A DNA stretch of 64,000 bases from NCBI RefSeq assembly GCF_002278135.3, contig NZ_CP029425.2, forward strand, positions 4,440,001 to 4,504,000, read 5' to 3'. The notes below the pieces were generated by a model, which saw only the letters and a list, made by a program, of their open reading frames with translations, did no database searches and was not told where the DNA came from. The translations under genes and the position numbers were made by a program. This DNA comes from Bradyrhizobium ottawaense. GTDB taxonomy: Bacteria > Pseudomonadota > Alphaproteobacteria > Rhizobiales > Xanthobacteraceae. Shown here in pieces: positions 535 through 50,141 of this stretch (its first letter is position 1; each line of letters begins with the position of its first letter).

Positions 535-651
535 GTGAAGCGGCTGGTGGCGACCGTCATCCTCCGTGCTCTGGCGGAGTTCAGCCATTTCCTCCTATCG
601 ATATCTCGCCGCGTGGCTGAACGCATCATCGCCGGCCTCGCCTCTCGATAA
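535..651 (+). CDS. candidate small protein ahead of cysteine synthase
   Basis: A 38-codon frame starts with GTG and reads VKRLVATVILRALAEF at its N-terminus. It looks like an amphipathic or short membrane helix followed by a basic tail. The GTG overlaps the TGA of a preceding frame (stop at 536-538, GTGA overlap). That frame ends RVSAHRTLGKKRS and could begin at the ATG at 464 (24 aa) or at a TTG at 290 (82 aa). The overlap would fit translational coupling of two tiny genes upstream of cysK. Neither has a clear Shine-Dalgarno and I do not recognise a family, so this could be chance. Confidence 0.28.
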   Translation: MKRLVATVILRALAEFSHFLLSISRRVAERIIAGLASR

Positions 652-772
652 TATCGCTATTTGGACAGGCGTTTCAGCTGGTTTCGCCGCAGCGCAAAAG
701 CCTTCCCCTTTGGCCTCCCAAGCACTAGGTTCTGGCCGACCAGATCAACCCCTTGGTAGCGATTTCCCCGAC

Positions 773-1807
773 ATGACCATTCGAAATGACGTTGTCGAAG
801 CCATCGGCAACACCCCGCTGATCAAGCTGAAGCGCGCCTCGGAACTGACCGGCTGCACCATTCTCGGCAAGGCCGAGTTCATGAATCCCGGCCAGTCGGT
901 CAAGGATCGCGCCGGCAAATGGATGATCCTGGAGGCCGAGAAGCGCGGCGAGCTCAAGCCCGGTGGTCTGGTGGTGGAAGCGACCGCCGGCAATACCGGC
1001 ATTGGCCTTGCGGTCGTCGCGAGCGCCCGCGGCTACCGCACGCTGATCGTGATCCCGGAAACGCAGAGCCAGGAGAAGAAAGACTTCCTGAAGCTGTGCG
1101 GTGCCGAGCTGATCGAGGTGCCGGCCCTGCCCTACGCCAATCCCAACAACTACCAGCATGTCGGTCGCCGTCTTGCTGACGAGCTGCGCAAGACCGAGCC
1201 GAACGGCGTGCTGTTCGCCGATCAGTGGAACAACCTCGACAATGCCAAGGCGCATTACGAGTCCACGGGCCCCGAAATCTGGGAGCAGACCGGCGGTAAG
1301 GTCGACGGCTTCGTCTGCTCGGTCGGCAGCGGGGGCACGCTGGCTGGTGTCAGCCGTTACTTGAAAGAGAAGAACAAGAACGTGCGGATCGCATGCGCCG
1401 ATCCGCACGGCGCCGGCATGTATGAATACTTCAGGACCGGCGATCCCAAGGCGACGCCAGGTGGCTCGATCACCGAAGGCATCGGCCTCAACCGCGCAAC
1501 CGCCATCGTCGAGACCGCGAAGGTCGATGATGCCTATCTCATTCCCGATGCCGAAGCCGTCGGCGTGATCTACGAGCTGCTGCAGCACGAGGGCCTGTGC
1601 CTCGGCGGCTCGACCGGTGTCAACATCGTGGGCGCCATACGCCTCGCCAAGCAGCTCGGGCCCGGCAAGACCATCGTCACCGTGCTGTGCGATTCCGGCA
1701 GCCGTTATCAGTCGAAGCTGTTCAACGCCGACTTCATGCGCGCCAAGAACCTGCCGGTGCCGGAATGGTTGGAGAAGCGCAGCAACATCAAGCCACCCTT
1801 CGTGTGA
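773..1807 (+). CDS. cysK: cysteine synthase (O-acetylserine sulfhydrylase)
   Basis: Cytoplasmic PLP enzyme that makes cysteine from O-acetylserine and sulfide. The 344-aa product starts MTIRNDVVEAIGNTPLIKLK, the normal family start, so I used the ATG at 773 although the frame stays open upstream. The PLP lysine is K44 in NPGQSVKDRAG. The substrate loop reads TAGNTG instead of the usual TSGNTG, and the phosphate-binding GGSTG is near residue 280. It is longer than the roughly 310-aa classical CysK and resembles the 340-350 aa alphaproteobacterial branch. No strong Shine-Dalgarno precedes it. It stands alone, and the next gene runs convergently. A cystathionine beta-synthase-like activity cannot be excluded from sequence alone. 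Confidence 0.88.
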   Translation: MTIRNDVVEAIGNTPLIKLKRASELTGCTILGKAEFMNPGQSVKDRAGKWMILEAEKRGELKPGGLVVEATAGNTGIGLAVVASARGYRTLIVIPETQSQEKKDFLKLCGAELIEVPALPYANPNNYQHVGRRLADELRKTEPNGVLFADQWNNLDNAKAHYESTGPEIWEQTGGKVDGFVCSVGSGGTLAGVSRYLKEKNKNVRIACADPHGAGMYEYFRTGDPKATPGGSITEGIGLNRATAIVETAKVDDAYLIPDAEAVGVIYELLQHEGLCLGGSTGVNIVGAIRLAKQLGPGKTIVTVLCDSGSRYQSKLFNADFMRAKNLPVPEWLEKRSNIKPPFV

Positions 1808-1868: not shown

Positions 1869-4109
1869 TTACGCGACCTCGCCGCGTTCCGAGGCCGCGG
1901 CACAATAGTCGCGCCAGAACTGGCGGTAGCCCTCCTCGACCCTGCGCGTGTAGATCGCGACATTGCCGGCCGCCGAGGCTGCGATCTGAGCCGGCAGGCC
2001 CGCGCGCAATTTCGCGAGATACTCGGGCTGCGAGGCAAATTTGCGGGCGATCTCGACATAGCCGTCGTCATCCTCGGCGACCCAGTCGTCAAGCCCGACC
2101 GCCGCCACGATGGCACCGCCGGCGCGCGAGGAGGCGCCGTGGCCGAGCTTGGCCACGACTGGAACGCCCGCATAAAGGGATTCCCAGGTGCTGACGCCGC
2201 CATTCTGCGGAAATGGATCGAGCGAAATATCGACTCTCGCGAAGGCCTGAAGATGTTCCGCGCGCGCTGACGAGCCCAGGCAGGTGATGTTCTCTTCTGG
2301 GATGCCCTGGTTCACGAGTCGCGCAAGAAGGCCATCGCGTACCAGAGAATCGTCAAGCAGCGTATGTTTGATGATGATCTTCGATCCGACCACCTCGCGC
2401 ATCACTTTCGACCAAACGCGGATCGCCTCGTCCGAGATCTTGTTGACGCGGTTGAACACGCCGAAAGTCACATGGCCGTTGCGGAGCATGGGAAGCTCCG
2501 AAGCGGGCACATCCAGGATCGGATCGATCGTGATCAGGCACGGCAGATCGTAGACCTTTTCGGCCAGCAGATGACGGGCCGATTCCGGAATGAAGATCGG
2601 ATCGGCGAGCACGTAGTCCATGGTCTGAAGGCCCGTGCCTGTGGCGTGTCCGAATCCGGTGGCCTGAATCGGGGCCGGCTTGCGGGCGAAGACCGGAAGC
2701 CTGTTGCCGGTCGTATGCCCGGACACGTCGATCAGGATATCGACCTTGTCGGCCTCGATACGATCGGCCAGCTCATCGTCCGAAAGCTGCGCGGCGTCGA
2801 CCCAGACGTCCGCCAACGACTTGAACTTGGCTGTCATCTCATCTCGTACCGGCGAGCACGAATAGCAGACGATCTCGAACTTGGCGTGATCATGGTGGCG
2901 CAGCACCGGTAAGAGGCCAAACGCCGCCGAGTGGTACCAGAACTCGGCCGCGACATACCCGACCACGATCCGCCTGCCGGGATCGAGCTGCCGGGGTGCG
3001 AGCTTCCTCTGTGGCAATCTGGCGCCGATCGCATCCCACCAGGATTTGCGCGCGGCCTGCTGGACCGCGAAATCGGCCTCGGAGAGAAAGTCGAGAAAGT
3101 AGATCTTCCGCGCGATCAAGTCCGGCTGGTCCGGCGCAATTGCCAGACCGGCGTCGAGATGTTCGATGGCGGCTGCGATCTCTCCCTGGTTGGCAAAGCA
3201 GGAGCTCAGCAGCGCCAGGGCGATCGCCGAGCGCGGATTTTCCTCGAGCAACGCCGTGCAGGCCAGAATCGCCTGCGCCGTATTTCCCATGCTCAGCGCG
3301 ACTTCTGCCTTCCCCCGCAAGGCCACTTCGAGTTTCGGTGAAAGCGCCAGTGCCGCGTCAAAATCCGCAGCTGCCTGTTCGGGCCGCGACAGCGCGAAAC
3401 TGAGCCGTCCGCGGTGCGCGAGGAGCTTTGCCGAACCTGGCCTGATCGCGAGCGCCGCTGCGAGCGCGGCTTCCGCCTCGTCGTAATGCTTGAGCTCGAT
3501 CCCGACCACGCCCTTGCCGATGAGGGCTTCGGCGTGACGCGGCTGAAACAACAGCGCGCGCTCGAAACTCTGTCTGGCGCGGTCAAATCGGCCCAGCGCC
3601 AGCTCGGCCAGACCCCGATTGCAGAGCGCATCGGGGTAGTCGGGCTTCAAGGCGATGGCGCGGTCATACAGTTCGATGGCTTGTTCCGGCAGGTTCATCT
3701 GGAGCAAGGCGTTGCCGAGGCCGGCCAGGGCCGGCGGAAAATTCGGCTTCAGCGCGATCGCTCTTTCCTGACACGCGCGGGCGGCCTCAAATTTCTGAAG
3801 GGACAGGTGGACAGCGGCGAGATTGTGATGCGCCTCGTGCGAACGTGGATCGATTGCGATCGCGCGCTCAATCAGTTGTTGCGCCTCCTCCAGGCGCCCG
3901 CCCTGTTGCACGCTGAGGCCGAGCAAATGCGTGGCGTCAAAATGATCCGGAACGGCTTGCACGATCTGGCGGCAGAGCGCTTCGCTCTCCGCATATCTGC
4001 CCTGGCCATAAGCGCTCGCCGCGGCGGAGATGATGGCGTCCGCCTGCTTCTTCAATTTCTTCTGCAATCGCGCATTCTGGAATGCGCGCGCGCCGGCGCT
4101 GCTCTGCAA
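1869..4109 (-). CDS. TPR plus SPINDLY/OGT-family glycosyltransferase, array copy 1
   Basis: 746 aa. A short basic coil is followed by about nine TPRs (residues 30-340) and then a GT41 catalytic region. The N-lobe carries the OGT-like YVAAEFWYHSAAF, where the family has a conserved histidine. Next comes DILIDVSGHTTGNRL...PAPIQ. The C-lobe nucleotide-sugar motif is DISLDPFPQNGGVSTWESL near residue 627. Family members transfer GlcNAc or fucose to Ser/Thr of cytosolic proteins; donor and acceptor are unknown here. There is no signal peptide. Translation must start at TTG (4109), because no in-frame ATG occurs until the TPRs. A GGAGA sits about 8 nt upstream, and this arrangement is shared by all four copies. 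The tail SERGEVA matches copy 4. Confidence 0.85.
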   Translation of the reverse strand: MQSSAGARAFQNARLQKKLKKQADAIISAAASAYGQGRYAESEALCRQIVQAVPDHFDATHLLGLSVQQGGRLEEAQQLIERAIAIDPRSHEAHHNLAAVHLSLQKFEAARACQERAIALKPNFPPALAGLGNALLQMNLPEQAIELYDRAIALKPDYPDALCNRGLAELALGRFDRARQSFERALLFQPRHAEALIGKGVVGIELKHYDEAEAALAAALAIRPGSAKLLAHRGRLSFALSRPEQAAADFDAALALSPKLEVALRGKAEVALSMGNTAQAILACTALLEENPRSAIALALLSSCFANQGEIAAAIEHLDAGLAIAPDQPDLIARKIYFLDFLSEADFAVQQAARKSWWDAIGARLPQRKLAPRQLDPGRRIVVGYVAAEFWYHSAAFGLLPVLRHHDHAKFEIVCYSCSPVRDEMTAKFKSLADVWVDAAQLSDDELADRIEADKVDILIDVSGHTTGNRLPVFARKPAPIQATGFGHATGTGLQTMDYVLADPIFIPESARHLLAEKVYDLPCLITIDPILDVPASELPMLRNGHVTFGVFNRVNKISDEAIRVWSKVMREVVGSKIIIKHTLLDDSLVRDGLLARLVNQGIPEENITCLGSSARAEHLQAFARVDISLDPFPQNGGVSTWESLYAGVPVVAKLGHGASSRAGGAIVAAVGLDDWVAEDDDGYVEIARKFASQPEYLAKLRAGLPAQIAASAAGNVAIYTRRVEEGYRQFWRDYCAAASERGEVA

Positions 4110-4219
4110 AGTGTCTCTCCGGGAGATGGCCCATTGGCGAGTCTAGCTGATTCGCGCGGCAGGCCAGCCGAACCTGAAATCCCTCCGGGATATCCCGGGC
4201 TCGCCCAGGACTTGCCTGC

Positions 4220-6484
4220 TCAGGAACCGCTGGGTGGGTCTGCCTCGCCTGCTACAGCGTCGCCGCACTCTGCAGCCGCGGCACAATAGTCGCGCCAGAA
4301 CTGGCGGTAGCCCTCCTCGACCCTGTGCGTGTAGATATCGACATTGCCGGCCGCCGAGGCTGCGATCCGAGCCGGCAGGCCCGCGCGCAACTTCGCGAGA
4401 TGCTCGGGCTGCGAGGCATATTTGCGGGCGATCTCGACATAGCCGTCGTCATCCTCGGCGACCCAGTCGTCAAGCCCGACCGCCGCCACGATGGCGCCGC
4501 CGGCGCGCGACGAGGCGCCATGACCGAGCTTGGCCACGACAGGAACCCCCGCATAGAGGGATTCCCAGGTGCTGACGCCGCCATTCTGCGGAAAGGGATC
4601 GAGCGAAATATCGACTCTCGCGAAGGCCTGAAGATGTTCCGCGCGCGCTGACGAGCCCAGGCAGGTGATGTTCTCTTCTGGGATGCCCTGGTTCACGAGT
4701 CGCGCAAGAAGGCCATCGCGCACCATGGGATCGTCAAGCAGCGTATGTTTGATGATGATCTTCGATCCGACCACCTCGCGCATCACTTTCGACCAAACGC
4801 GGATCGCCTCGTCCGAGATCTTGTTGACACGGTTGAACACGCCGAAAGTGACATGGCCGTTGCGGAGCATGGGAAGCTCCGAAGGCGGCACGTCCAGGAT
4901 CGGATCGATGGTGTTGAGACACGGCAGGTCAAAGACCTTTTCGGCGAGCAGATGCCGTGCCGATTGCGGGATGAAGACGGGGTCCGCGAGCACATAGTCC
5001 ATGGTCTGCATGCCCGTGCCCGTCGCGTGTCCGAATCCGGTGGCCTGGATCGGGGCCGGCTTCCGCGCGAAGACCTGCAGCCTGTTGCCGGTCGTGTGGC
5101 CCGAAACGTCGATCAGGATGTCGACCTTGTCGGCCTGGATGCGATCGGCGAGCTCGTCATCCGAAAGCTGCCATGCATCGACCCAGACGTCCGCCAATGA
5201 GTTGAATTTGGCGGTCATCTCGTCTCGTGACGGCGAGCACGAATAGCAGATGATCTTGAAGTTGACGTGATCGTGATGAGCAGCACCGGCAGCAAGGTGA
5301 GTCCCGCCGAGTGTTGTCGGAATTCGTTAGCGACATAGCCGACCACAATCTGCCTTTCCGGATCGAGCGACCGCTTCGGCAGCGTCCTTTGCGGCAGCCT
5401 GGAGCCGATCCGATCCCACCAGGATCTTCGTACCTCCTGCTGGACCGCGAAATCGGCCTCGGCGCGGAAGTCCTGCAAGAAGATCTTTCCCCGGATCGCA
5501 TCTTCATAATCCGGCCGGATCGCCAGCGCGCGATCAAGATATTCGATGGCGGCGTCCATTTCTCCCTGGTTCGAATGAGCAAAGCCCATCAGCGCCAGCC
5601 CCGTCTCCGAGCGCGGATTTCGTTCGATCAGGGCGGCTGCGGCCGCCATCGCCTGCGCTGTCTTTCCCATCACGAGGCAAGCCTGTGCCTTGCCCCGGAG
5701 AGCCAGTTCGAGCTTGGGCGAAATCGCAAGCGCCGCCTCGAAATCGGCAACCGCCGGCTCCAGGCGCTGCAGCTCGTAATTCAGCCGCCCGCGTTGCGCC
5801 AGTATCTTCGCCGAACCGGGCCTGATTGCGAGCGCCGCTGCGAGAGCAGCTTCCGCGTCATCGTAATGCTTGAGCTCGAGGCCGACCACGCCTTTGCCGA
5901 CGAGCGCCTCGGCGTGACGCGGTTGAAACAACAAAGCACGCTCGAAGCTTTGCCTGGCGCGCTCAAACTGGCCCAGCGCCAGCTCGGCCAGACCACGATT
6001 GCAGAGCGCATCGGTATAATCGGGCTTCAGCTTGATGGCGCGATCGTACATTTCGATCGCCTGTTCGGGCAGGTTCATCTGGAGCAAGGTATTGCCGAGG
6101 CCCACCAGGGCCGGCAGAAAATTCGGCTTCAGCGCGATCGCCTTCTCCTGGGACGCACGGGCGGCCTCAAATTTTTGAAGGGCCAAGTGCACAGCCGCGA
6201 GATTGTTATGGGCCTCGTGCGAACGCGGATCGATCGCGATCGCGCGCTCGAGCAGCTGTTGCGCCTCCTCCAGGCGCCCGCCGTGTTGCGCGCTCAGGCC
6301 GAGCAGATGCGCAGCGTCGAAATGATCCGGAACGGCCTGCAGGATCTGACGGCAGAGTGCCTCGTTCTCCGCATATCTGGCCATAGGCATTCGCCGCGGC
6401 AGGGATGATGGCGTCGGCCTGCTTCTTCAATTTCTTCTGCAACCGCGCATTCTGGAATGCGCGCGCGCCGGCGCTGCTCTGCAA
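4220..6484 (-). pseudogene. TPR plus SPINDLY-family glycosyltransferase, array copy 2, two frameshifts
   Basis: Full-length homologue of its neighbours, but broken twice. Near 6378 it lacks 5 nt present in the other copies: they read ctgccctggcc or equivalent, here ctggcc, a loss between short ctg repeats. This shifts frame right after AYGQ. Near 5278 a single base is missing, shifting frame just after LTLLPVL, in the N-lobe of the catalytic domain. The downstream half restarts only at MTAKFNSLADV (5218). Sequence is a mosaic. The first TPRs and most of the C-lobe match copy 1, while the later TPRs, the N-lobe and the C-terminal tail (PPSGS) resemble copy 3. It could still yield a TPR-only or C-lobe fragment, but not an intact enzyme unless the frameshifts are sequencing errors. 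Confidence 0.85.
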
Positions 6485-6600
6485 GATGTCTCTCCGGAAG
6501 ATGGCCCGCGGCGAGTCTAACTGATTCGCGTTCCGGGCCGGCCGGTCGGCGGGACTGGAAATCCTTCCGGGCTATTCCGGGGCTCGCTGCAGGATCCGGC

Positions 6601-8874
6601 TCAGGAACCGCCAGGTGCGTCTGCCCCGCTTGCCGCAGCCTCGTCGCTCTCCGCGGCGGCGGTACAATAGTCGCGCCAGAACTGACGATAACCCGCTTCG
6701 AGCTCGCGCGTGTAGATCTCGACATTACCGGCGGGCGAGGCTGCGATCCGAGCCGGCAATCCCGCGCGCAACTTCGCCAGATGCTCGGGCTGCGACGCAA
6801 ATCTGCGGGCGATCTCGACATAGCCGTCGTCATCCTCGGCGACCCAGTCGCCGAGACCGACGGCGGCCACGATGGAGGCGCCGGCACGCGAAGAGGCTCC
6901 AATGCCGAGCTTGGCGACGACGGGAACGCCCTTGTAGAGGGATTCCCAGGTGCTGATGCCGCCATTCTGCGGGAACGTGTCGAGCGAAATATCGATCTTG
7001 TCGAAGGCCATCAGGTGGTCGTCGCGCGAGGTGGTGCCGAGGCAGGTGATGTCCTCCTCCGCAATGCCCTGCGCGATGAAGCGTGCGATCAGGCTATCGC
7101 GCAGCAGGGCATCATCGAGCAAACCATGCTTGAGGATGATCTTCGATCCCGGCAACTCCCGCATGATGCGCGACCACACACGAATCGCATCATCCGAAAT
7201 CTTGTAGATGCGGTTGAACACGCCGAAGGTGACGTAGCCGTTGCGGAGCATCGGCAGCTCGGAGGGCTGCAGATTAGTGACTGGCTCCATCGTGATCAGG
7301 CACGGCAGATCGTAGATCTTTTCCGGAAACAAATGCCGAGCCGATGGCGGAATGAAGATGGGATCCGCGAGCACATAGTCCATGGTCGGCATGCCCGTGC
7401 CCGTCGCGTGTCCGAATCCCGTGGCCTGGATCGGAGCCGGCTTCCGCGCGAAGGCCTGCAGCCTGTTGCCGGTCGTGTGGCCGGAAACGTCGATCAGAAT
7501 GTCGACGTTGTCGGCCTGAATACGATCGGCGAGCTCGTCGTCCGACATCTGCCAGGCGTCGACCCAGACGTCCGCCATTGACTTGAACTTGGCGGTGTAC
7601 TCGTCCGCTCCCGGCCAGGAATAATAGCAGATGATCTCAAACTTGGCGTGATCGTGGTTGCGCAGCACGGGCAGCAGGGTAAGTCCCGCCGAATGCTGCC
7701 GGAATTCGGCGGCGACGTAGCCGACCACGATCCGCTTGTCCGGATCGAGCGGCCGCTTCGGCAGCGTCCTTTGCGGTATCTTCGAGCCGATCGCATCCCA
7801 CCAGGACTTGCGCACCGCCTGCTGGACCGCGAAATCGGCGTCCGCGAGGTAGTCCAGCAAGAAGATCTTGCCCCTGATCGCGTCTCCATAATCCGGTCGG
7901 AGCGCAAGCGCGCGATCGAGATATTGGATCGCGGAGTCCATGTCTCCCTGGTTGGAATAGGCGAAGCCCAGCAGCGCCAACCCCATCTCGGAGCGCGGAT
8001 TTCGCTCGATCAAGGTCGTCGCCGCCGCCATCGCCTGCGCGGTCCGTCCCATGACGAGGCAGACCTGCGCCTTGCCCCGAAGGGCCAGCTCGAGCTTGGG
8101 CGAAATCGCAAGCGCCGCATCGAAGTCCGCAAGCGCGGGCTCCAGGCGCTGCAGCTCGTAACTGAGCCGCCCGCGCTGGGCCAGGATCCTCGGCGCGCCG
8201 GGCTTGATCGCGAGCGCCATGGCGAGCTTGGCTGCCGCCTCCTCGTGATGCCGCAGTTCCATGCTGACCATGCCGCTGCCGACGATGGCCTCCGCGTGAC
8301 GCGGCTGAAACAGCAGGGCCCGATCGAAACTCTCCTTGGCGCGCATGATCTGCCCAAGCACGAGCTCGACCATGCCGCGATTGCAGAGTGCGTCGGCATA
8401 ATCCGGTTTGATCTTGATGGCGCGCTCGTGCAGCTCGAGCGCCTGTTCGTATAGCCCGAGATGCATCAGCGTGTTGCCAAGATTGGTCAGCGCAACCGCG
8501 AAATTGGGCTTCAGCGCGATCGCCCTCTCCTGGCATCGCCGCGCCTCCTCGTAATTGCCGAGGTCGAAATGCACGGTTGCGAGGTTGTTATGGGCATCGT
8601 GCAGGCGCGGATCGAGCGCAATCACGCGCTCCAGCAGCTCTTTCGCCTCCTCGAGGCGCCGGCCGTCATGGGCGCACATGCCGAGCAGATGCACAGCGTC
8701 GACGTGATCCGGAAGGGCTTTCAGGATTTCGCGGCACAGCGCCTCGGTCTCGGCATAGCGGCCCTGGCCATAGGCGTTCGCCGCAGCGGCGATGACGGCG
8801 TCGGCCTGCTTCATCAACTTCTTCTGCAATCGCGCATTCTGGAATGCGCGCGCGCCGCCGCCGCTGTTCTGCAA
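6601..8874 (-). CDS. TPR plus SPINDLY/OGT-family glycosyltransferase, array copy 3
   Basis: 757 aa from the TTG at 8874, which aligns with the TTG starts of the other copies and has the same GGAGAGACACC leader. The frame stays open to 9024, but that extension has no homology to the other members. TPRs are followed by the GT41 core with YVAAEFRQHSAGL, DILIDVSGHTTGNRL and DISLDTFPQNGGISTWESL. It differs from copy 1 in the donor-proximal stretch (PVTNLQPSELPML versus ILDVPASELPML), so specificity may differ. Its tail ends DAPGGS. It lies 113 nt downstream of copy 4 and 116 nt upstream of the broken copy 2. The four genes are probably co-transcribed on the minus strand. Confidence 0.85.
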   Translation of the reverse strand: MQNSGGGARAFQNARLQKKLMKQADAVIAAAANAYGQGRYAETEALCREILKALPDHVDAVHLLGMCAHDGRRLEEAKELLERVIALDPRLHDAHNNLATVHFDLGNYEEARRCQERAIALKPNFAVALTNLGNTLMHLGLYEQALELHERAIKIKPDYADALCNRGMVELVLGQIMRAKESFDRALLFQPRHAEAIVGSGMVSMELRHHEEAAAKLAMALAIKPGAPRILAQRGRLSYELQRLEPALADFDAALAISPKLELALRGKAQVCLVMGRTAQAMAAATTLIERNPRSEMGLALLGFAYSNQGDMDSAIQYLDRALALRPDYGDAIRGKIFLLDYLADADFAVQQAVRKSWWDAIGSKIPQRTLPKRPLDPDKRIVVGYVAAEFRQHSAGLTLLPVLRNHDHAKFEIICYYSWPGADEYTAKFKSMADVWVDAWQMSDDELADRIQADNVDILIDVSGHTTGNRLQAFARKPAPIQATGFGHATGTGMPTMDYVLADPIFIPPSARHLFPEKIYDLPCLITMEPVTNLQPSELPMLRNGYVTFGVFNRIYKISDDAIRVWSRIMRELPGSKIILKHGLLDDALLRDSLIARFIAQGIAEEDITCLGTTSRDDHLMAFDKIDISLDTFPQNGGISTWESLYKGVPVVAKLGIGASSRAGASIVAAVGLGDWVAEDDDGYVEIARRFASQPEHLAKLRAGLPARIAASPAGNVEIYTRELEAGYRQFWRDYCTAAAESDEAAASGADAPGGS

Positions 8875-8987
8875 GGTGTCTCTCCGGAGGATGCCCTCAG
8901 AGGAGTCTAACTGATTCGCAGGCCCGGCCGGCCGGTCACCCGACCAGCAGCGCCTCCGGGATTTCCCGGGGGCGGCGCAAGGTCGGA

Positions 8988-11228
8988 CTACGCCACCTCG
9001 CCGCGTTCCGAGGCGCCGGCACAATGATCCTGCCAGAACCGGCGATAGGCCGCCTCGACCTCACGCGTATAGAGTTCGACGTTGCCGGCAGGCGAGGCTG
9101 CGATCCGAGCCGGCAGTTCCGCCCGCAACGTCGCCAGATGAGCGGGCTGCGCCGCATATTTGCGCGCGATCGCGGCGTAGCCGTCGTCATCCTCGGCGAC
9201 CCAGTCGTCGAGGCCGACGGCCGCCACGATCGAGCCGCCGGCGCGCGACGAAGAGCCGTTGCCGAGCTTGGCGACGACCGGAACGCCCGCATAGAGGGAT
9301 TCCCAGGTGCTGATGCCGCCATTTTGCGGGAAGGTGTCGAGGGAGATGTCGACTTGCGCAAAGGCCAGCAGATGCTCGTGGCGCGTGGTCGAGCCCAGGC
9401 AGGTGATATTGTCTTCGGCAATGCCCTGGGCTGCGAACCGTGCGATCAGGCCGTCGCGCAGCAAGGGATCGTCGAGCAGCCCGTGCTTGATGATGATCTT
9501 CGAACCCGCCGCCTCGCGCATCACTTTCGACCACACCCGGATCGCCTCATCCGAGATCTTGTAGATGCGGTTGAACACACCGAAGGTCACATGGCCGTTC
9601 CGGAGCATGGGAAGCTCCGAGGGCGGCACGTCCAGGATGGGATCGATCGTGATCAGGCAGGGCAGATCATGGACCTTCTCGACCAGCAAATGGCGCGCCG
9701 AGTGCGGAATGAAGATTGGATCAGCGAGCACGTAATCCATGGTCTGAAGGCCCGTGCCCGTGGCGTGTCCGAAACCCGTGACCTGTATCGGGGCCGGCTT
9801 GCGGGCAAATACGGGGAGCCTGTTGCCAGCCGTATGCCCGGACACGTCGATCAGGATATCGATCTTGTCCGCCTGGATGCGATCGAGGAGCTCGTCGTCC
9901 GAAAGCTGCGCGGCGTCGACCCAGACGTCCGCGAGGGGCTTGAACCTCTCGGTGATCTCATCCTGCAGCGGCCAGCAGGAATAGCAGACGATCTCGAACC
10001 TGGCGTGATCATGATGGCGCAGCACCGGCAACAGCGCGAACGCTGCCGAGTGGTTCCTGAATTCCGACGCGACATAGCCGACGACGATCCGCCTGTCCGG
10101 ATCGAGTTCCCGGGGCGGCAGTGCCCGTTGCGGCAGTCGGGCGCCGATTGCATCCCACCAGGATTTTCGCGCCGCCTGCTGGACCGCGAAATCGGCCTCC
10201 GGCAGATAATCCAGGATGAATATCTTGCGTGCGATCGCATCCGCATAGTCCGGTGAGATCTCGAGCGCCGCGTCGAGATGCTCGAGTGCCGCCGCGACGT
10301 CTCCCTGGTTCGCATAGCAGGCGCCGAGAAGCACGATTGCGTAATCGGACCGCGGATTGTCCTCGAGCAGGATCTTCACGGCCGCGATCGCCTGCGTCGT
10401 GTTCCCCAAGAGAAGGTTGACTTGCGCCTTGCCACGCAGCGCGAGCTCGAGCCGCGGCGATTGCGCCAGTGCCGCATCGAAGTCCGCCGCCGCCTGCTCC
10501 AGGCGGTGCAGATCGAAATTGAGCCGCCCGCGCTGGGCCAGAATCCGCGGTGAACCCGGCTTGATCGCGAGCCCTGCCGCGAGGGCGGCTTCCGCCTCCT
10601 CATAATGCCGGAGCTCGATGCACACCATGCCCTTGCCCGCGATCGCTTCCGCATGACGCGGCTGAAACGACAGGGCGCGATCGAAACTCTCCTTGGCGCG
10701 CTCGGACCGGCCGATCAACAGCTCTGCCATGCCGCGGTTGCAAAATGCATCGGCATAGTCGGGCCGCAGCCCGATCGCGCGTTCGTGCAGCCCGATCGCC
10801 TGTTCGCCGAGGCCGACATTCAGGAGCGTATTGCCGAGATTGGTCAGGGTGATCGGACAATTCGGCTTCAGCGCAATGGCCTTCTCCTGGCATGCGCGGG
10901 CGTCCTGAAATTTCTGGAGATCGAAATACACGGCGCCGAGATTGCCATGGGCATCGGGCGAGCGCGGATCGAGCGCAACCGCGCGTTCGAACAGTCGTTG
11001 CGCCTCCTCCAGCCGCCCGCCCTCATACGCGCGCAGGCCGAGCAGGTGCGTGGCGTGGAAATGATCCGGAACCTCCTCCACAATGCCGCGGCAGAGCGTC
11101 TCGGCCTCGGCAAATCGGCCCTGCCGCAGCGCCTCGACCGCGAGCGACATGACGGCGTCCGCCTGCTTCCTCAACTTCTTTTGCAATCGCGCATTCTGGA
11201 ATGCGCGCGCGCCGACACTGCTCTGCAA
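8988..11228 (-). CDS. TPR plus SPINDLY/OGT-family glycosyltransferase, array copy 4
   Basis: 746 aa, first in transcription order. TTG start at 11228 with a purine-rich GGAGAGA leader. Layout is as in the other copies: coil, about nine TPRs, and a GT41 N-lobe with YVASEFRNHSAAF. Then come DILIDVSGHTAGNRL and the C-lobe DISLDTFPQNGGISTWESL. It ends SERGEVA, as in copy 1. Its TPR region is the most divergent of the four (QGRFAEAETLCRGIVEEV), suggesting a different partner set. The promoter for the array should lie in the 100-nt gap to the aapP stop, or be shared with the aap operon. I do not see a convincing -35/-10 there. Cytosolic; acceptor unknown. Confidence 0.85.
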   Translation of the reverse strand: MQSSVGARAFQNARLQKKLRKQADAVMSLAVEALRQGRFAEAETLCRGIVEEVPDHFHATHLLGLRAYEGGRLEEAQRLFERAVALDPRSPDAHGNLGAVYFDLQKFQDARACQEKAIALKPNCPITLTNLGNTLLNVGLGEQAIGLHERAIGLRPDYADAFCNRGMAELLIGRSERAKESFDRALSFQPRHAEAIAGKGMVCIELRHYEEAEAALAAGLAIKPGSPRILAQRGRLNFDLHRLEQAAADFDAALAQSPRLELALRGKAQVNLLLGNTTQAIAAVKILLEDNPRSDYAIVLLGACYANQGDVAAALEHLDAALEISPDYADAIARKIFILDYLPEADFAVQQAARKSWWDAIGARLPQRALPPRELDPDRRIVVGYVASEFRNHSAAFALLPVLRHHDHARFEIVCYSCWPLQDEITERFKPLADVWVDAAQLSDDELLDRIQADKIDILIDVSGHTAGNRLPVFARKPAPIQVTGFGHATGTGLQTMDYVLADPIFIPHSARHLLVEKVHDLPCLITIDPILDVPPSELPMLRNGHVTFGVFNRIYKISDEAIRVWSKVMREAAGSKIIIKHGLLDDPLLRDGLIARFAAQGIAEDNITCLGSTTRHEHLLAFAQVDISLDTFPQNGGISTWESLYAGVPVVAKLGNGSSSRAGGSIVAAVGLDDWVAEDDDGYAAIARKYAAQPAHLATLRAELPARIAASPAGNVELYTREVEAAYRRFWQDHCAGASERGEVA

Positions 11229-11329
11229 GGTCTCTCTCCGGAAGATGGCCCGGAAAGAGGCACAGCTGATTCGGATGGTGCCAGGCTGGCGGGTCAGTCA
11301 GGCCGGCGCGGGCTCCGGATGGCGAGTGC

Positions 11330-12067
11330 TCAGCGCAGGATCTGGCTCAGGAACAGCTTCGTGCGGGCGTGCTGGGGCGCCGCAAAGAACTCGTTCGGCG
11401 TGTTGGCCTCGATGATCTGGCCGGCGTCCATGAAGACCACGCGGTTGGCGACCTCGCGGGCAAAGCCCATTTCGTGGGTGACGACCAGCATGGTCATGCC
11501 TTCCTCGGCGAGGTCCACCATGGTGTCCAGCACCTCCTTGACCATCTCCGGATCGAGCGCCGAGGTCGGCTCGTCGAACAGCATGACCTTCGGGTTCATG
11601 GTCAGGGCCCGCGCGATCGCGACGCGCTGCTGCTGGCCGCCGGACATCTGACCCGGAAACTTGTTGGCCTGATGCGGGATCTTGACCCGCTCCAGGAACT
11701 TCATCGCGTTGATCTCGGCGTCCTTCTTCGGGATGTTGCGCACCCAGATCGGCGCCAGCGTGCAGTTCTCCAGCACGGTCAGATGCGGGAACAGGTTGAA
11801 GCTCTGGAACACCATGCCGACTTCCCGGCGCACCGCGTCGACGTGCTTGAGGTTGGGGCCGAGCGCGATGCCGTCGACGACGATCTCGCCCTCCTGGAAT
11901 TCCTCCAGCGCGTTGATGCAGCGGATCAGGGTCGACTTGCCGGAGCCCGAGGGTCCGCAGATCACGATGCGCTCTCCCTTCTCGACCGCGAGGTCGATGT
12001 CGCGCAGCACGTGGAAGTCGCCGTACCATTTGTTGAGGCCGGAAATCTTGACGATGGGGTCGGACAT
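11330..12067 (-). CDS. aapP: general L-amino acid ABC transporter, ATP-binding protein
   Basis: Cytoplasmic ATPase of a polar amino-acid importer. 245 aa: Walker [10 protein letters not shown] near residue 40, Q-loop [11 protein letters not shown], signature SGGQQQR, Walker [13 protein letters not shown], and the H-loop histidine in VVTHEM. Length and motifs match AapP/BztD/GlnQ. It is the last gene of aapJQMP, 11 nt after aapM. The next gene on this strand is the first GT41 copy, 101 nt downstream, so readthrough into the array is possible. Confidence 0.93.
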
Positions 12068-12078
12068 GGTGACCTCGA

Positions 12079-13599
12079 TCAGTTGCGACGGTGGGCGTTG
12101 AGGCGGTGCTCGACGAACAGCGAGTAGCGCGACATTCCAAAGCAGAAGATGAAGTAGATGATCCCGGCGAAGGCGAAGCCGGTGAACGCGGTCGAAGGCG
12201 TTGACCATTTCGGGTCCGAGAACGAGGCCCTGAGCGAGCCGAGCAGATCGAACAGCGCCACGATCGAGACCAGCGAGGTGTCCTTGAACAGCGAGATGAA
12301 GCTGTTGACGAGGTTCGGAATGACGTGACGCAGCGCCTGCGGCAGCACGATCAGCGAGGTCGTCTTCCACCAGGACAGGCCGAGGGCCGCGGCGGCCTCG
12401 CCCTGCCCGCGCGGGATCGCGGCGAGCCCGCCGCGGACGTTCTCGGCCTGATAGGCGCCCGTGAACAGCGCGATGCCGATCAGCGCGCGGACGAGGCCGT
12501 CGACGGTGAAATTGCCGGGCAGGAACAGCGGCAGCATGTAGGTGGCGAAGAACAGCACGGTGATCAGCGGCACGCCGCGCCAGAACTCGATGAAGGCGAT
12601 CGAGAAGATCCGGATCAAGGGAATGGTGGAGCGGCGGCCGAGCGCCAGCGCGATGCCGATCGGCAGCGAGGTGACGATGCCGGTGACGGAGACCACCAGC
12701 GTCACCAGAAGGCCGCCCCACAAATTCGTCGTCACGACCGGCAGTCCACCGCGATCGAGCCCCATCAGCTTGATCACGATAGCGATGGCACCGAAGGCAA
12801 CGATGCTCGAGGCCAGAGCGCGCCAGCCGGTGCGCAAGCCGCCGCCGAGACCGAAGGCGATCAACGACACGACCGCGGTGGTGACGGCGAAATCGGCCCA
12901 GATCGACTGACCCGCGCCCTGGATCTGATCGCGCAGCCAGGTCAGCGGAAGGATCAGCCAGGAGATCGCCGTGCCGACCAGCACGATAAAATTCCCGACC
13001 AACCACAACAACGGCGCGGCGGCGGATGTCTTGCTGAGACCGAGCACGGCCTGCCCGGCGCCGATGATGCTGTCGCCGAACAATTCCAGCAGGCCGGCGG
13101 TCCAGCTGAGACCAAAGCCCTTGATGCCGCCACCGTGCAGCAGAAAGAACGCGACCACAGGAAATGCGAAGAAGAACAGACTGGCGTTGAGCCCCTTCGC
13201 CGGCAGACGGGGCACGAGCAGCGGCACCAGCAGGGCCACCGCAAGAATGAAGGTGAGGTTGACCCGCCAGCGCTCGGCCTCGGGATAAAAACCGTAGATC
13301 AATTGCGGCAGCTTGGCCTGGATGTAGGGCCAGCAGGCGCCGACCGCAAAGCCGGCGTTCTCCGCGAGGCATGCCGTGCGGTCCTTGCCGCTCCAGACCG
13401 CATCGACCATCAGGAACCTGACCGAGGGAACGATGGTGAACCACAACAGCAAGGCGCCAACGATCGTGAGCAGGATGTTGGTCGGCGAGTTGAACAGGCG
13501 CGTGCGCATCAGCCCGACAAAGCCCGTGGTCTTCACAGGCGCGGGACGTTCGGTGAGCAGGTCCCGGCGGACGAAGCTGCTCGAGGCGATATCGCTCAT
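12079..13599 (-). CDS. aapM: general L-amino acid ABC transporter, permease
   Basis: 506 aa inner-membrane permease. An extended N-terminal half carries several membrane spans and a periplasmic loop with paired cysteines, as in AapM/BztC. The HisM-type permease domain is in the C-terminal half, with the EAA-loop-like [18 protein letters not shown] near residue 390. The ATG at 13599 overlaps the aapQ stop by 4 nt (ATGA), which fixes the start. The frame is open 9 codons further upstream, but that would only extend into aapQ. It pairs with AapQ to form the translocation pore. Confidence 0.92.
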
Positions 13600-14801
13600 G
13601 CGCCCAGACTCCGGCTGACGCGCCACCCGTAGACGCTCATGATCGCGCTGGTGAGCAGCGAGATCAGGAGATAGATGCCCATGGTCATCGCGATGATCTC
13701 GATCGCCTGCCCGGTCTGGCTCAGCGACGTGCCGGCGAACACCGAGACGAGGTCAGGATAGCCGATCGCGACCGCCAGCGACGAGTTCTTGGTGAGATTG
13801 AGGTACTGGTTGGTCAGCGGCGGCACGATGACGCGCATGGCCTGAGGCACGACGACCAGCCGGAGCGTGGTGCCGCGGCTGAGGCCGAGCGAGGCCCCCG
13901 CCTCCATCTGCCCCTTGTGGACCGACAGGATTCCGGCGCGCACGATCTCGGCGATGAAGGCGGCGGTATAGGTCGACAGCGCCAGCGTCAGCGCCACGAA
14001 CTCCGGAATGATCCGCGATCCGCCGGCGAAATTGAAGCCCTTCAGCTGCGGCAGCTCGAAGGTAAAGGGCAGACCGAACACCAATATCGTGGCGAGCGGC
14101 AGGCCGAACAGCAGGCCAAGCACAGTGGGCCAGATCCGGATCATCCGCCCTTCCTGAAACAGCGCGCGCCGCGCATAGAAGCGCAAGGCCAGGGACGCGA
14201 CGATACCGAGCGCCAGCATCGCCAGAAATGGCTCCAGGCCGCTTCCGCCGACCGGGCTTGGAATGACGAGGCCCCGATTGCTGATGAAGGCAACGCCGAG
14301 CAGCGAGATGCTCTGCCGCGGATTGGGCAAGGCCGCCAGCACCGCGAGGTACCAGAACAGGATCTGGAACAGCAGCGGCAGGTTGCGGATGAGCTCGACA
14401 TAGATCTCGCCGACGCGGGACAACAGCCAATTGGGTGACAGCCGGCACAGCGCGACGATGAAGCCGATCAAGGTGGCGAAGACGATGCCCACCACCGAGA
14501 CCACGAGCGTGTTCAGGAGCCCGACCACGAACACGCGCAGGAACGTGTCCGAGCCGGTATAGGAGATCAGGGTCTGGTTGACGTCGAAGCCGGCATTATT
14601 CCTGAGGAAGCCGAAGCCGGCGGCAATGTGCTGGTTTTCGAGGTTGGCGCGGGCATTGGAGACGATCTCATAGCCGATCCAGCCCAGGATCGCCGCGAAG
14701 GCAAACTGGACGGCAACGCCGTTCCAGCCTGCCTTGCCACCCAGAACGCGCCTGATCTTCAGCGCGATCTGGGGTGGCGGTTTTCGGGCCTCGGTGCTCA
14801 T
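13596..14801 (-). CDS. aapQ: general L-amino acid ABC transporter, permease
   Basis: 401 aa inner-membrane protein. The first span ([14 protein letters not shown]) is followed by a periplasmic segment. The permease core starts around residue 90 ([20 protein letters not shown]), and the coupling helix lies around [23 protein letters not shown] long insert between core helices (residues 175-255) is typical of AapQ/BztB. It overlaps aapM by 4 nt and begins 24 nt after the aapJ stop. Partner of AapM. Confidence 0.92.
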
Positions 14802-14825: not shown

Positions 14826-15842
14826 TCAGCGGATCGGCGGCGCGTACTGAAGACCGCCCTTGTTCCAGAGATTGTTGAGACCGCGATTGATGGCGAGCGG
14901 CGAGCCCGCGCCGACATTGCGATCGAACACCTCGCCGTAATTGCCGACCGCCTTCACGATCCGCACCACCCAGTCCTTGGTCAGGCCGAGCTGTTCGCCG
15001 AAATTGCCGTCGGTGCCGAGGACGCGCTTCAACTCGGGATTTTCCAGCTTTGCTTTCTCGTCTACGTTCTTCGAGCTCACGCCAAGCTCTTCGGCGGTGA
15101 CCATCGCGAACAGCGTCCACTTCACGATGTCGAACCACTGATCGTCGCCGTGGCGCACCATGGGGCCGAGCGGCTCCTTCGAGATGATTTCGGGAAGCAC
15201 CATGTGGTCGTTGGGATTGGCAAGCTTCAGGCGATTGGCGTACAGGCCCGACTGATCGGTGGTGAAGACGTCGCAGCGTCCGGCCTCATAGGCCTTGACC
15301 GTTTCGTCGTTGGTGCCGAACGCGATCACCTCGTACTTCATGTTATTGGCCTTGAAGTAGTCGGCCAGATTCTGCTCGGTGGTAGTGCCGGTCTGCACGC
15401 AGACCGAGGCGCTGTTGAGCTCGAGCGCCGAATTCACCTTGAGCGACTTCTTCACCATGAAGCCCTGCCCGTCATAATAGGTCACGCCGGTAAAATTGGC
15501 GCCGAGCGAGGTATCACGCGAGATGGTCCAGGTGGTGTTGCGCGAGAGCACGTCGATTTCGCCGGATTGCAGCGCGGTGAAGCGGTCCTTGGCGGACAGC
15601 GGCACGTATTTGACCTTGGTCGCATCGTTGAAGATCGCCCCGGCGATCGCCTTGCAGACGTCGACGTCGAGGCCGGTCCAATTGCCCTTGTCGTCGGGCG
15701 AGGAGAATCCCGGCAGGCCCTGGCTGACGCCGCAGGACAGCATGCCCCGGTCCTTGACCGTCTTGAGCGTTTGCGCATCGGCGGCCTGGGCGGAGAGGCC
15801 GGCGGCGAGAGCAAGGGTGAGAGCCAGGGTTACGCGTTTCAT
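14826..15842 (-). CDS. aapJ: general L-amino acid ABC transporter, periplasmic binding protein
   Basis: 338 aa. The signal peptide is MKRVTLALTLALAAGLSAQAADA, with cleavage probably after ADA. The SBP_bac_3 fold follows: TLKTVKDRGMLSCGVSQGLP at the mature N-terminus, then GLDVDVCKAIAGAIF and ALQSGEIDVLSRNTTWTISRD. A cysteine pair (C in MLSCGV and C in VDVCKA) resembles other AapJ proteins. I chose the ATG at 15842 because it starts the signal peptide; the frame is open 46 codons upstream without one. First gene of aapJQMP, it captures broad-range polar and other L-amino acids in the periplasm. Confidence 0.93.
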   Translation of the reverse strand: MKRVTLALTLALAAGLSAQAADAQTLKTVKDRGMLSCGVSQGLPGFSSPDDKGNWTGLDVDVCKAIAGAIFNDATKVKYVPLSAKDRFTALQSGEIDVLSRNTTWTISRDTSLGANFTGVTYYDGQGFMVKKSLKVNSALELNSASVCVQTGTTTEQNLADYFKANNMKYEVIAFGTNDETVKAYEAGRCDVFTTDQSGLYANRLKLANPNDHMVLPEIISKEPLGPMVRHGDDQWFDIVKWTLFAMVTAEELGVSSKNVDEKAKLENPELKRVLGTDGNFGEQLGLTKDWVVRIVKAVGNYGEVFDRNVGAGSPLAINRGLNNLWNKGGLQYAPPIR

Positions 15843-16129
15843 GGGCTTTGGGCCTTTCAAAGTCGTATCAAGGAACGTTGTCTCAGGATCATCCCTGCCA
15901 GGGCCAGGCGTATCAAGGCCAGCCCTGCAAGAGTCATGCTGGAAAACCTTGCCGAACACCCGCCGATCCCGAAAGGCCATACCTTAATCCCCGCCGCAGC
16001 GCCGGCCGATATGGCTGTGACACAAGGTCCGGTCAGACGATGGATCGAAGGTCGCGGCAGGCCCCTCAACATGCGGCGACTGAATAGCACCTGCGCATCA
16101 CAGAACGACTGGCGTGCCGGGTCAAGGGG
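15843..16129. other. divergent intergenic region, aapJ and metC leaders
   Basis: There are 388 nt between the divergent aapJ and metC starts, and no coding frame I trust. The aapJ promoter should lie here. I see no clear sigma-54 -24/-12 pair and no riboswitch that I recognise. Confidence 0.5.
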
Positions 16130-27010: not shown

Positions 27011-30000
27011 TTCGCCGGCCGCACCTCGACCGTTCCCGTGCCCGTCCGCCCATAGCGCGAGGGATTGTACATGTCCTCGACATAGGCTTGCGGCAGCACG
27101 TATTTGCCGGGCGAGACCACGCGCACGATATAGGCGACGGTGAAGACCGACTTCGAATCCGAGGCGCGATCGACCGCCGCAGTGAAGCGGTCGTCGCGGA
27201 ACTCGGTATCTTCAGGCTCCTCGCCGTCCTCGATCCAGTCCAGCGTGCCGCTGTCGCCCGACGACACCAGCTTCGGGTTGTCGATCTCAAGGCCCGCCGG
27301 CAGATAGTCGGACACCATGATGTGGCCGTACTCAGGCTTGGCCTCGGTGATCTTCAGTACCACCGCGAAGCGCTGGTTCTGCTTGACCTTGCTGATGTCG
27401 GCCGGCTTGCCGTCGAGCGTGAAGTAGTTGCGCTCGATCTTGAAGCCGTTGGACGCAGCCGGCTCCGGCGTCACCGGCGAGCCCGACACCGAGACCACCG
27501 CCTGCACGGGCGCATCGCCGGTATTGGTGATCTTCAGCGGCTTGCCCTCCAGCGTCGCGGCCTTATAGCTGCGGTACAGCGCGGTCTTGACCGGCTGACC
27601 GTCCACTTCCATGGACAGGTTCTCCTTGGCCAGCGCCCGCGCCGCCAGCACCAGCCAAGCATTCTCCTGCGTGGAGGTGTAGGGCGTGAGCCCGCGCGCG
27701 GTCTCGACCCGCGACACCGCCTGGGTCAGCGTCGCCTTCGGCGCGTTGCCTTCGCTCGCGAGCGACACCAGAGCTGCGGCATCGCGAAGCTGCGAGCCGT
27801 AGTCGGTGCGGCCGAACTCCAGCACGGGCTTCGGCGCGAGGCTGTCGAGCGCGGCGCCGTACACGCGTTCGGCGCGGTTGCGATCGCCGACCAGAGCGAG
27901 CGCCGCCGCGAGCTGCGACTTCGCGATCGGGGTTGCGAGGTTGCTGAGCTTGGTGTCGGCGAGATAGCGGAGATCGCCGATCGGCGCCGCACCGTTACGT
28001 GCGAGCACATAGAGGCCGTAAGCGAGATCGCGCCCGCCGTCCTTCTCCGGCTCGTTGCCGTTGACGACGGAGTTTCTGACACGGTCGAGCGCGTTCTTGA
28101 ACAGGACGTCCGGCACCGCAAAACCCTTTTCGCGGGCGCGGGTCAGGAAGTCCGTCACGTAGGCGTCGAGCCAGGCGTCGTCGCCGCCGGCCGACCACAG
28201 GCCGAACGAGCCGTTCGAACCCTGACGGGCCAAGAGCCGCTCAATCGCATCGCGGATGCGCTGATCGACCTCGGTGTCCATGGCCAGATGCGCACCGGCA
28301 GCAAGGTCGTTGACATAGAGCAACGGCATCGCGCGGCTCGTGATCTGCTCCGAGCAGCCATACGGATAACGGTCGAGCGCTTTCAGGATCGTCGCCGCAT
28401 CGAGCGCGGTCGACAGGCTGGCCGAAACGGAGACGCTGCCGGTGCCCGGCACGAGGTCGGAGAACATGTCCGAGGTCAGCGTCAGGCTCTCGCCTTTCGC
28501 CAGCGTCCGGATCGAACGGCGTGCCAGGACCTGCGTCGCCGCCTTGACGTCGAACGCGTAATGGCGCGCCAGCGTCAGCCCGTTCGGCCCCCTGATGTCG
28601 ACGTCCAGCGTCGCCTGCCCGGCCGCGGTCGCGTCGATCGCCAGCGCAAACGAGTTGCGCTGCTTGGCGGCGAGCTTGACCGTGGTGGCGGGATTGCCCG
28701 TCATCTTCACGGGGCCGCCGGTCTTCACGTTGATGACGTAGTCGCCGGCCTGTCCCTCGACATTGTCGATCTCGAGGTTGACCGTGCCGTGGTCGCCATT
28801 GAGCAGGAAGCGCGGCAGGGTCGTGGTGAGCACGACAGGATCGCGGATCACGACGTCGGTGTTGGCGCGGCCAAGCTTGGTCGCGGTCCACGCCACCGCC
28901 ATCACGCGCGCGGTGCCGGCGAACTCCGGGATGTCGAAGCCGACTTCCGCGCTGCCATCGGAGCCAACCGTGACGATGCCGGAATAGAGCGCCAGCGGCT
29001 TCTGCGCGGGCGGCGAACCCTGCAGCTCGGCAGCCCCAGCGTCACCACCGGACTTGATCTGGCCTCGCGTGCCGGACATGCCGTCGATGAGCTGCCCATA
29101 GAGGTCGCGGATCTCGGCGCTCAGGCGGCGCTGGCCGAGATAGTAATCGTCCGGCGCCGGCGGCTTGTAATTGGTGAGGTTGAGGATGCCGACATCGACC
29201 GCGGCGATGACGATCTTGGCGTCCTCGCCCGGATTGAGCCCGTCGAGCTTGACCGGGATCTTCAACGTTGCGTTGGGCCGGATCAGCGCCGGCGGCGACA
29301 GCTTGACCTGCAAGGTGCGGGCCTGCTTGTCGATGCCGAACCATTTCAGCCCGATCGCCCGGCCCGGCATGCGCTGGGCAGCGGCATCGAGCGGGCGGCG
29401 CAGCGTCGCCACCACGTAAGCACCTGTGCCCCAGTCCTTACCAACCGGGAGCTTCACCTGGGCAGTGCCTTCCTTGACGTCGATCGTCTGCGTCGTCAGC
29501 AGGCGGTCGCCGAGCACGTTGACGGTCAGCTTGCCGGCGCTGCGGACGTTGACCGACACCGTCATGGTGTCGCCGGAGGAATATTGCGGCTTGTCGATCG
29601 AGGTCTCCAGGAGGTCCGGCGTGTCGGCGCTGCCGTCGGAATACCAGCCGACGTCGAACTGCACCGAGGTCACCGGGCCATCGGCGTCGTTCGACTTCAC
29701 ATCGAGACGGTAGCGGCCGGGCTGGGGAGTGAGCGAAATCCGCGCCGGCTTGTCGGCCGTAACGGTCACATCACCGTCGGCAACGCGCGAGGTCGACTTG
29801 ACCGGCTCGTACTCCCAGTAATTGTTCTGGCGATACCACTGGTAGCGCGACTCCATCTTCAGGAGCTCGTAGCGCAGGCCGTCGCGGCGCAACCTCTCGC
29901 CCTCGGGCGAGACGAACAGGACATCGAACTCGGCCTTGTCGCCCTCGGCGACGTTCTTGTCACCGAATAGCGGCTTGACGCCGATCAGGGCGGTCGCGGG

Positions 30001-48133: not shown

Positions 48134-50137
<2,004 letters not shown>

Positions 50138-50141
50138 CGCA

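Follow-up and report, generated by a model that had tools for sequence, protein, structure and literature searches.

Why should a bacterial genome keep four large glycosyltransferase genes of one family in a row? The question is raised by a stretch of 64,000 bases (bases 4440001-4504000 of the one-contig, 8.59-Mb genome of Bradyrhizobium ottawaense, referred to here as the window), in which four genes encoding tetratricopeptide repeats (TPR) and a catalytic domain of glycosyltransferase family 41 (GT41) lie head to tail, all on the minus strand, from 11228 down to 1869 (Table 1). The original prediction, made from the sequence, took them for TPR/SPINDLY-type glycosyltransferases, akin to bacterial enzymes like O-GlcNAc transferase (OGT), forming a diversified cytosolic family whose copies differ in their choice of partner. 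Judging from its phylogeny and substitution rates, the array is an old family of paralogs, in largely order-conserved ortholog groups under purifying selection, and the divergence of the paralogs is, as aligned, concentrated in the concave TPR groove. As to function, I put the chances at about even that the array encodes cytosolic protein O-glycosyltransferases that share one GDP-sugar donor (not GDP-fucose, and no UDP-sugar) and act on different acceptors. This is no new type of system. The enzyme family is known; its pocket here is unusual, and the arrangement can be put to the test. Among the titles and abstracts listed from CC-licensed literature in PubMed Central (subscription papers lie outside this scope), no paper was found with the Bradyrhizobium GT41 array as its subject.

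Composition, Distribution and Phylogeny of the Array

Copies A, B and D match the GT41 domain PF13844 with 138-144 bits, against a cut-off of 25, so that chance is excluded for the intact copies; the C-terminal open reading frame (ORF) of copy C reaches 115 bits. TPRs lie N-terminal to the GT-B domain. The predicted arrangement of four same-strand genes thus stands, as do the conserved leaders, since at all four starts a TTG codon follows 4 bases behind a GGAGAGA block. The ORF listed for copy B (6601-9024, 807 amino acids) is over-long, the conserved start being at 8874. The repeat unit measures about 2.36-2.38 kb. What did not survive is the notion of four copies as a functional set, because copy C is broken by deletions of 5 bp and 1 bp; three are intact. 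The array lies, as predicted, behind a transporter operon on the same strand, which from its gene order I take to be the polar amino-acid operon aapJQMP (aapP being the ATPase gene), and it is bordered on the other side by a convergent gene of the PALP family.

A comparison of array size across related genomes, proposed with the prediction as a check, found the array in this aap/PALP slot in 32 of the 98 Bradyrhizobium genomes searched, the window's own included, with 4 copies in 5 genomes, 3 in 12, 2 in 10 and 1 in 5 (the broken copy C is counted, and the size of 3 for the genome whose contig ends is a minimum). The transporter operon flanks it in 32/32 and the PALP gene in 31/32, one contig ending first. 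From another set of named genomes, which overlaps the first, came 51 aap-linked loci. Among the array-less genomes measured (15, in one or two contigs), the distance from permease to PALP gene is 0.77-1.5 kb in 13, which amounts to an empty slot, because the ATPase alone takes about 0.75 kb; in one of the remaining two it is 3.5 kb, with no GT41 match within, and in the other the genes lie apart. The best tree (50 genomes) has 7 changes of the array label; starred branches account for at least 3. Single-copy genomes hold the D type, which suggests that D was the founder. In an order-wide search of 121 genomes, only 3 Bradyrhizobium and 3 distant matches (32-35% identical) passed 1e-60, and 73/73 plasmid records with a match were less than 60% identical, so that no close relatives outside Bradyrhizobium were found in this sample.

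In a protein tree of 154 intact copies and one groEL-linked copy, the 136 aap-linked copies fall into group A (39 members, support 0.996, always at the head of the array), A2 (8 members, 0.86, all second), B (39 members, 0.94), C (6 members, 0.999) and D (44 members, 0.99, usually last but at the head in L114 and L131). Some of the deeper forks lack support (0.10, 0.24). Median ratios of nonsynonymous to synonymous substitution rates (dN/dS), calculated from at most 150 randomly drawn pairs within groups and 100 between, are 0.09-0.27 within groups, for TPR and catalytic domains alike. Between groups, dN is 0.17-0.29 for the TPR domain and 0.09-0.16 for the catalytic domain. The TPR domain of copy B differs by a dN of 0.055 among orthologs and of about 0.27 from A or D; that of A2 is as tight (0.053), with 8 members only. 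Recent amplification or concerted evolution was rejected, as copies cluster by type and not by strain, the exception being a tract of C/D conversion in the window strain.

The genome holds a fifth GT41 gene (C1:3335068-3337197; L041:9069-11198), 43% identical to A and adjoining groES-groEL (L041:6205-8202; names assigned by eye from sequence). A relative of it (83%) in Bradyrhizobium DOA9 (L079) likewise lies near groEL genes. Two loci titled Frankia sp. RB7 (L127, L137) carry Bradyrhizobium-like GT41 genes, L127 also the transporter genes (ATPase 94% identical), and the organism name is, on this likeness, probably wrong.

Active Site and Donor Pocket

Residues were mapped by alignment to Arabidopsis SPINDLY (SPY), with roles taken from PMC10027727 and PMC9715652. 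The array has the SPY equivalents H393 (=H495), S394 (=S496), K557 (=K665), K581 (=K689), H619 (=H728), A622 (=A731) and E643 (=E752). All of these are invariant in 136/136 intact aap-linked copies except A622, kept in 132, with V, D or T in the others; N553 (=N661) is found in 135. The array has the guanine-contact Lys of SPY and lacks Arg at the A731 site. K689 and Ala at 731 are among three residues given in PMC10027727 as separating SPY-like from OGT-like proteins. The set characteristic of O-GlcNAc transferases, Leu866/Arg904/Cys917, is replaced by K, A and Q, and the OGT label of the original prediction is not supported, the pocket being unlike that of those enzymes.

The site that contacts the sugar departs from SPY as well. 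Q635 occupies the position of the fucose contact Y744 and is followed by N-G-G; G stands at T747, A395 at V497 and F486 at I592. Residues Q635, N636, G637 and G638 do not vary among the 136 copies, and because the pocket is invariant, one donor would serve all of them. Exchange of SPY Y744 to Ala or Cys abolishes or strongly reduces activity (PMC9715652/PMC10027727), and the residue at this position has been proposed to drive donor choice (PMC9715652), a proposal of which the array pocket offers a test. Nineteen further Bradyrhizobium copies (sister arrays, single genes and the groEL-linked gene) have K581, E643 and Q-N-G-G in 19/19 and H619 in 17.

For comparison, 39 GT41 regions of other Alphaproteobacteria were picked by me from the strongest hits (85 of 240 genomes were positive). 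They contain 53 GT41 ORFs, 52 with all key columns, whose pockets are non-K/R/D in 41, K/non-R/E in 6, non-K/non-R/E in 3 and non-K/R/E in 2. None of these ORFs joins K with R or D, and none has Q at the sugar position. The array therefore belongs to the small GDP-type class. A DNA pattern for FPQNGGx[ST]TWE was found in 2/385 alphaproteobacterial genomes, both Bradyrhizobium, and in 36/98 Bradyrhizobium genomes, 5 times in the window's own, the broken copy included.

Divergence of the TPR Groove

The TPRs keep a 34-residue register from residue 21, and their helices have high confidence in the AlphaFold2 (AF2) model. At positions 2, 5, 9, 12 and 13 of helix A, taken here as the concave ones of TPR proteins, the divergence between groups A, B and D minus that within groups is 0.330, against 0.208 at other non-core positions (permutation, p = 0.0003). 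With position 6 included, the set tried first, p was 0.0044 and 0.0027 in two runs. Helix B (p = 0.75) and the loops (p = 0.71), taken as controls, show no bias. With the five positions, the comparisons A/B, A/D, B/D, A/A2 and B/C are each biased (p = 0.002-0.015), and within groups the concave positions have no excess (0.20 vs 0.195). TPR positions share ancestry, and these p-values serve as guides only. The part of the prediction that spoke of a diversified, presumably cytosolic family with TPRs differing where partners should bind is thus supported by old groups A, B and D, purifying selection, invariant key active-site residues and the concave excess. The bias together with the long retention of the copies points to different acceptors.

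Sister Arrays and GDP-Mannose

Tandem GT41 genes are not peculiar to this place, and the statement that bacterial GT41 genes usually occur singly holds only poorly. Sister arrays of the same clade, 56-62% identical, with 3-4 copies, occur independently of the aap slot, and 9 of the 39 other alphaproteobacterial loci (L193, L200, L206, L208, L211, L223, L226, L227 and L228) hold two or more GT41 ORFs, 2-4 within 20 kb, mostly with an OGT-type pocket.

In four of five genomes (L133 B. aeschynomenes, L134 SSBR45G, L136 SRS-191 and L139 STM 3843, presumably all photosynthetic-type strains), the sister array starts about 70-85 bases behind a gene for mannose-1-phosphate guanylyltransferase/mannose-6-phosphate isomerase (GMP_PMI), itself behind genes for a nucleotide-sugar dehydrogenase and an epimerase. 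The three GMP_PMI proteins scanned match TIGR01479 with 617-627 bits (cut-off 373), and the L136 protein shares 90% identity with the L139 one. Mannose is favoured because of this linkage and because the contacts to fucose and GlcNAc are lost; as the sugar transferred, it is a tentative choice. In the 39 other alphaproteobacterial loci, NeuB, GDP-mannose and GDP-fucose genes gave no match at 1e-15.

Proposed Function and Alternatives

According to the explanation I prefer, about ten TPRs per protein would form a superhelix that grips an acceptor polypeptide, while the GT-B domain, with a GDP-sugar bound in its C-lobe, would transfer one sugar to a Ser or Thr residue in the manner of SPY. The common donor would be neither GDP-fucose nor a UDP-sugar, the leading candidate being GDP-mannose or a sugar derived from it. 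A D-like founder would have been inserted between the amino-acid transporter operon and the PALP gene and then duplicated in place, and the copies would have been retained since their grooves accepted different acceptors, conceivably flagellins, chaperone clients or transporter parts. A sharper version, that Bradyrhizobium has a GT41 clade with a new Q-N-G-G pocket and a GDP-hexose donor (probably GDP-mannose), whose tandem paralogs divide acceptors by way of the TPR groove, is possible but somewhat doubtful. Acceptor choice by protein glycosyltransferases has been described as poorly understood, particularly in O-linked systems (PMC7591256); the 2-4 adjacent enzymes that many genomes hold, alike in active site but unlike in groove, would make that choice readable from single-gene deletions.

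Several observations weigh against this explanation. On the side of the donor, the A731 site has Ala in only 4 of the 19 further Bradyrhizobium copies, and K/A/Q could place the array in a prokaryotic intermediate group with mixed key residues, reported in PMC10027727, whose donor these residues do not settle. The pocket region is weak in the AF2 model (pLDDT 64 at 631-640, much of 487-527 below 50), for which reason the pocket is read from the sequence alignment. The GMP_PMI link holds for sister arrays only: the aap-linked array itself has no gene for a GDP-sugar next to it, the fifth sister array (G082, L153) has no GMP_PMI within 11 kb upstream, and GMP_PMI lies inside a larger polysaccharide locus, the link possibly being to that locus. 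On the side of the acceptors, the groove bias weakens (p = 0.04) when positions 33 and 34 are added; it is absent from C/D comparisons (p 0.31-0.75; five-position set p = 0.38), which would fit sequence exchange between C and D; it comes from 35 groove tests in one analysis, with the concave positions assigned from general TPR architecture; and TPR domains outpace catalytic domains in most groups anyway. The distribution of NeuB, given below, counts on the same side. The alternatives overlap, and their probabilities need not add up to one with that of the preferred explanation.

It is rather unlikely that the copies are redundant and kept for dosage, active on the same acceptor, with groove differences due to drift after duplication. 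A copy number of 1-4, the loss or breakage of copies and the gene conversion speak for this; the persistence of ortholog groups over many species, the nearly frozen TPR domain of B and the lack of concave excess within groups speak against it.

The likeness to Caulobacter FlmG, a TPR-glycosyltransferase that has six flagellins as substrates and depends on pseudaminic acid (PMC7591256), raises the unlikely alternative of flagellin glycosyltransferases with a CMP-nonulosonic acid (pseudaminic or legionaminic) as donor, made via NeuB. The window's genome has 8 Flagellin_N matches (those listed near 2.1 Mb) and 2 NeuB matches near 2.94-2.96 Mb, the array lying at 4.44-4.45 Mb. Within the clade (aapM identity at least 84%), NeuB is found in 25/29 array genomes vs 2/14 others (p = 8e-6), which fits a nonulosonate donor, and Flagellin_N matches are overall higher in array genomes (7.7 vs 4.3). 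However, a NeuB match is absent from 7 of the 32 array genomes, six of them 100% and one 99% complete; the association leaves 3 independent pairs on the tree, too few for a test; flagellin number does not differ significantly inside the clade (7.7 vs 7.1, p = 0.34); and the array pocket is of the GDP type, a contrast with FlmG drawn without FlmG's own pocket. The two NeuB genes (L155, L172; near C1:2943098 and 2960673) are about 18 kb apart, and L155 resembles, by eye, a legionaminic-acid and surface-glycan locus. Short text patterns, too weak to judge the neighbourhood, gave no flagellin candidates in the 39 other alphaproteobacterial loci.

That the array encodes bacterial SPINDLYs, i.e., GDP-fucose protein O-fucosyltransferases, is improbable: sequence and Foldseek comparisons with the PDB both rank SPY first and its guanine-contact residues agree, but Y744 is Q in 136/136 and T747, V497 and I592 are replaced, and the Azospirillum GT41 proteins encoded near a fucose synthase (see below) retain Y and T. 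It is still less probable that the proteins act on a glycan or lipid, or as scaffolds. The position of four sister arrays inside a polysaccharide locus speaks for this, and the invariant catalytic residues speak against it, as does the combination of TPR superhelix and GT41 catalytic domain, which belongs to protein-acting enzymes. O-GlcNAc transferases are very improbable, despite the common family and the name "O-linked N-acetylglucosamine transferase" on many of 120 listed relatives, names that the pocket would predict to be wrong.

Broken Copies and Recombination

Copy C survives as two ORFs (5215-6390 and 4220-5218). Compared with its ortholog in the nearest relative of the genome, Bradyrhizobium sp. 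Rc3b, it is 83-97% identical per 150-column block, and both deletions shift the frame, one near the gene start, the other early in the catalytic domain. Assembly error is an unlikely cause: the genome is in one contig, the three neighbouring copies are open, and the two deletions are separate, one of them removing 5 bp. Three blocks of the catalytic region are 95-97% identical to D, two of them closer to D than to their own ortholog, apparently a sign of gene conversion toward D. Intact C orthologs occur 6 times elsewhere.

The prediction would have failed had relatives carried arrays with all copies decaying. They do not: the 63 loci contain 154 copies whose frame stays open for more than 690 codons, against 3 broken ones (the window's C, L096 and L129) and 2 entries truncated at contig ends, and a decaying array was rejected. 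One of the truncated entries, the short metagenome contig L132, entered the copy count with its pieces merged; its copy B, seen in two pieces, may be broken too. B. vignae has a broken first copy matching only both ends of copy A (L096:7001-8609), and B. canariense BTA-1 one resembling an A/D fusion (L129:8001-11194); both probably arose by recombination between array copies.

Other Features of the Locus

Table 1. Coordinates of the GT41 array and bordering genes in the window (aa, amino acids).
Feature	Position	Strand	Remarks
Copy A	8988..11228	-	Intact TPR-GT41, 746 aa; conserved TTG start at 11228
Copy B	6601..8874	-	Intact TPR-GT41, 757 aa from conserved TTG at 8874
Copy C	4220..6484	-	Broken TPR-GT41; two ORFs, two frameshifting deletions; TTG at 6484
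Copy D	1869..4109	-	Intact TPR-GT41, 746 aa; TTG at 4109; type present in single-copy genomes
Leader of copy A	11229..11329	-	Conserved block ending in GGAGAGA before TTG
Similar leaders	8875-8987 (B), 6485-6600 (C), 4110-4219 (D)	-	Like leader of copy A
Amino-acid ABC ATPase (aapP-like)	11330..12103	-	Start approximate
Amino-acid ABC permease (aapM-like)	12079..13626	-	
Amino-acid ABC permease (aapQ-like)	13596..14801	-	
Amino-acid ABC substrate-binding protein (aapJ-like)	14826..15980	-	Start may be downstream
PALP-family gene, cysteine-synthase-like (own label)	566..1807	+	Convergent; other border of array slot

From the coordinates, the spacers from the ATPase gene onward are 101, 113, 116 and 110 bases, then 61 to the PALP gene, in which matches to relatives often start only near residue 61-67. 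Scans for promoters and terminators yielded nothing beyond what shuffled sequence yields, and Rfam at gathering threshold found nothing in the window except two tRNAs. A role in phage defence was rejected, PADLOC giving no match apart from a weak TPR hit for copy B (E 8e-4). Elsewhere on the minus strand, the gene for a penicillin-binding protein 1C is preceded by one for a protein of 1829 aa with no NCBIfam match at 1e-20 (24764-27010 and 27007-32496), and biotin carboxylase-like and carboxyltransferase-like genes (48134-51746) are probably an acyl-CoA carboxylase pair.

Comparison with Known Systems

The Foldseek and VIA matches considered here are GT41-related and TPR proteins only, a selection that says nothing on the absence of others. 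The HMW1C/NGT N-glucosyltransferases, which use UDP-glucose and link to Asn, are remote: NF049992 is matched with 21.3 (D) and 22.8 (B) bits, against a cut-off of 1000, and A is not listed. Human and Drosophila O-GlcNAc transferase and XcOGT share fold and family with the array but match with lower Z; the human enzyme has Leu/Arg/Cys at the three key sites, where the array has K/A/Q, and Asp in place of the array's E at the site of E752. The OGT-like protein of Thermobaculum terrenum (PDB 5DJS), which differs from the array by a Y at the sugar position, had no O-GlcNAc activity in vitro (PMC9715652).

Eight regions of plasmids were viewed, with an incomplete gene table. Five Azospirillum plasmids (L156, L157, L166, L167, L168), of one lineage, encode TPR-GT41 proteins 31-32% identical to copy A, of the same family and with a GDP-type pocket (K, H, A, E). 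They differ in a full fucose pocket, Y-N-G-T-T-T-T, and in the genes nearby, for type I secretion and for GDP-L-fucose synthase (annotated 0.06 to 7.4 kb off); from these features they are candidates for O-fucosylation of a secreted protein in bacteria. The remaining three regions, two of them from Azospirillum and one from Nostoc, differ in their pockets, and fucose synthase is not among the genes in that incomplete table. A second Azospirillum GT41 type has F in place of Y744; in two strains (L169, L171) its gene has flaF and lptF in the vicinity.

Caulobacter FlmG is likened to the array by description and not by sequence: it too is alphaproteobacterial and soluble, with TPR and glycosyltransferase domains, the TPR giving acceptor specificity, but its donor is pseudaminic acid and its acceptors are flagellins (PMC7591256). 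The closest counterpart is SPINDLY itself (PDB 7Y4I, 8DTF-8DTI), a GDP-fucose protein O-fucosyltransferase with the same TPR and GT41 domains, the same catalytic H, S and K, the same guanine contacts K689, H728 and A731 and the same ribose contact E752. From it the array differs in identity (about 27%), in its sugar pocket and in being bacterial and tandem; if the sharper version given above is true, its paralogs would be naturally occurring bacterial variants of a SPINDLY-like enzyme that differ in acceptor specificity.
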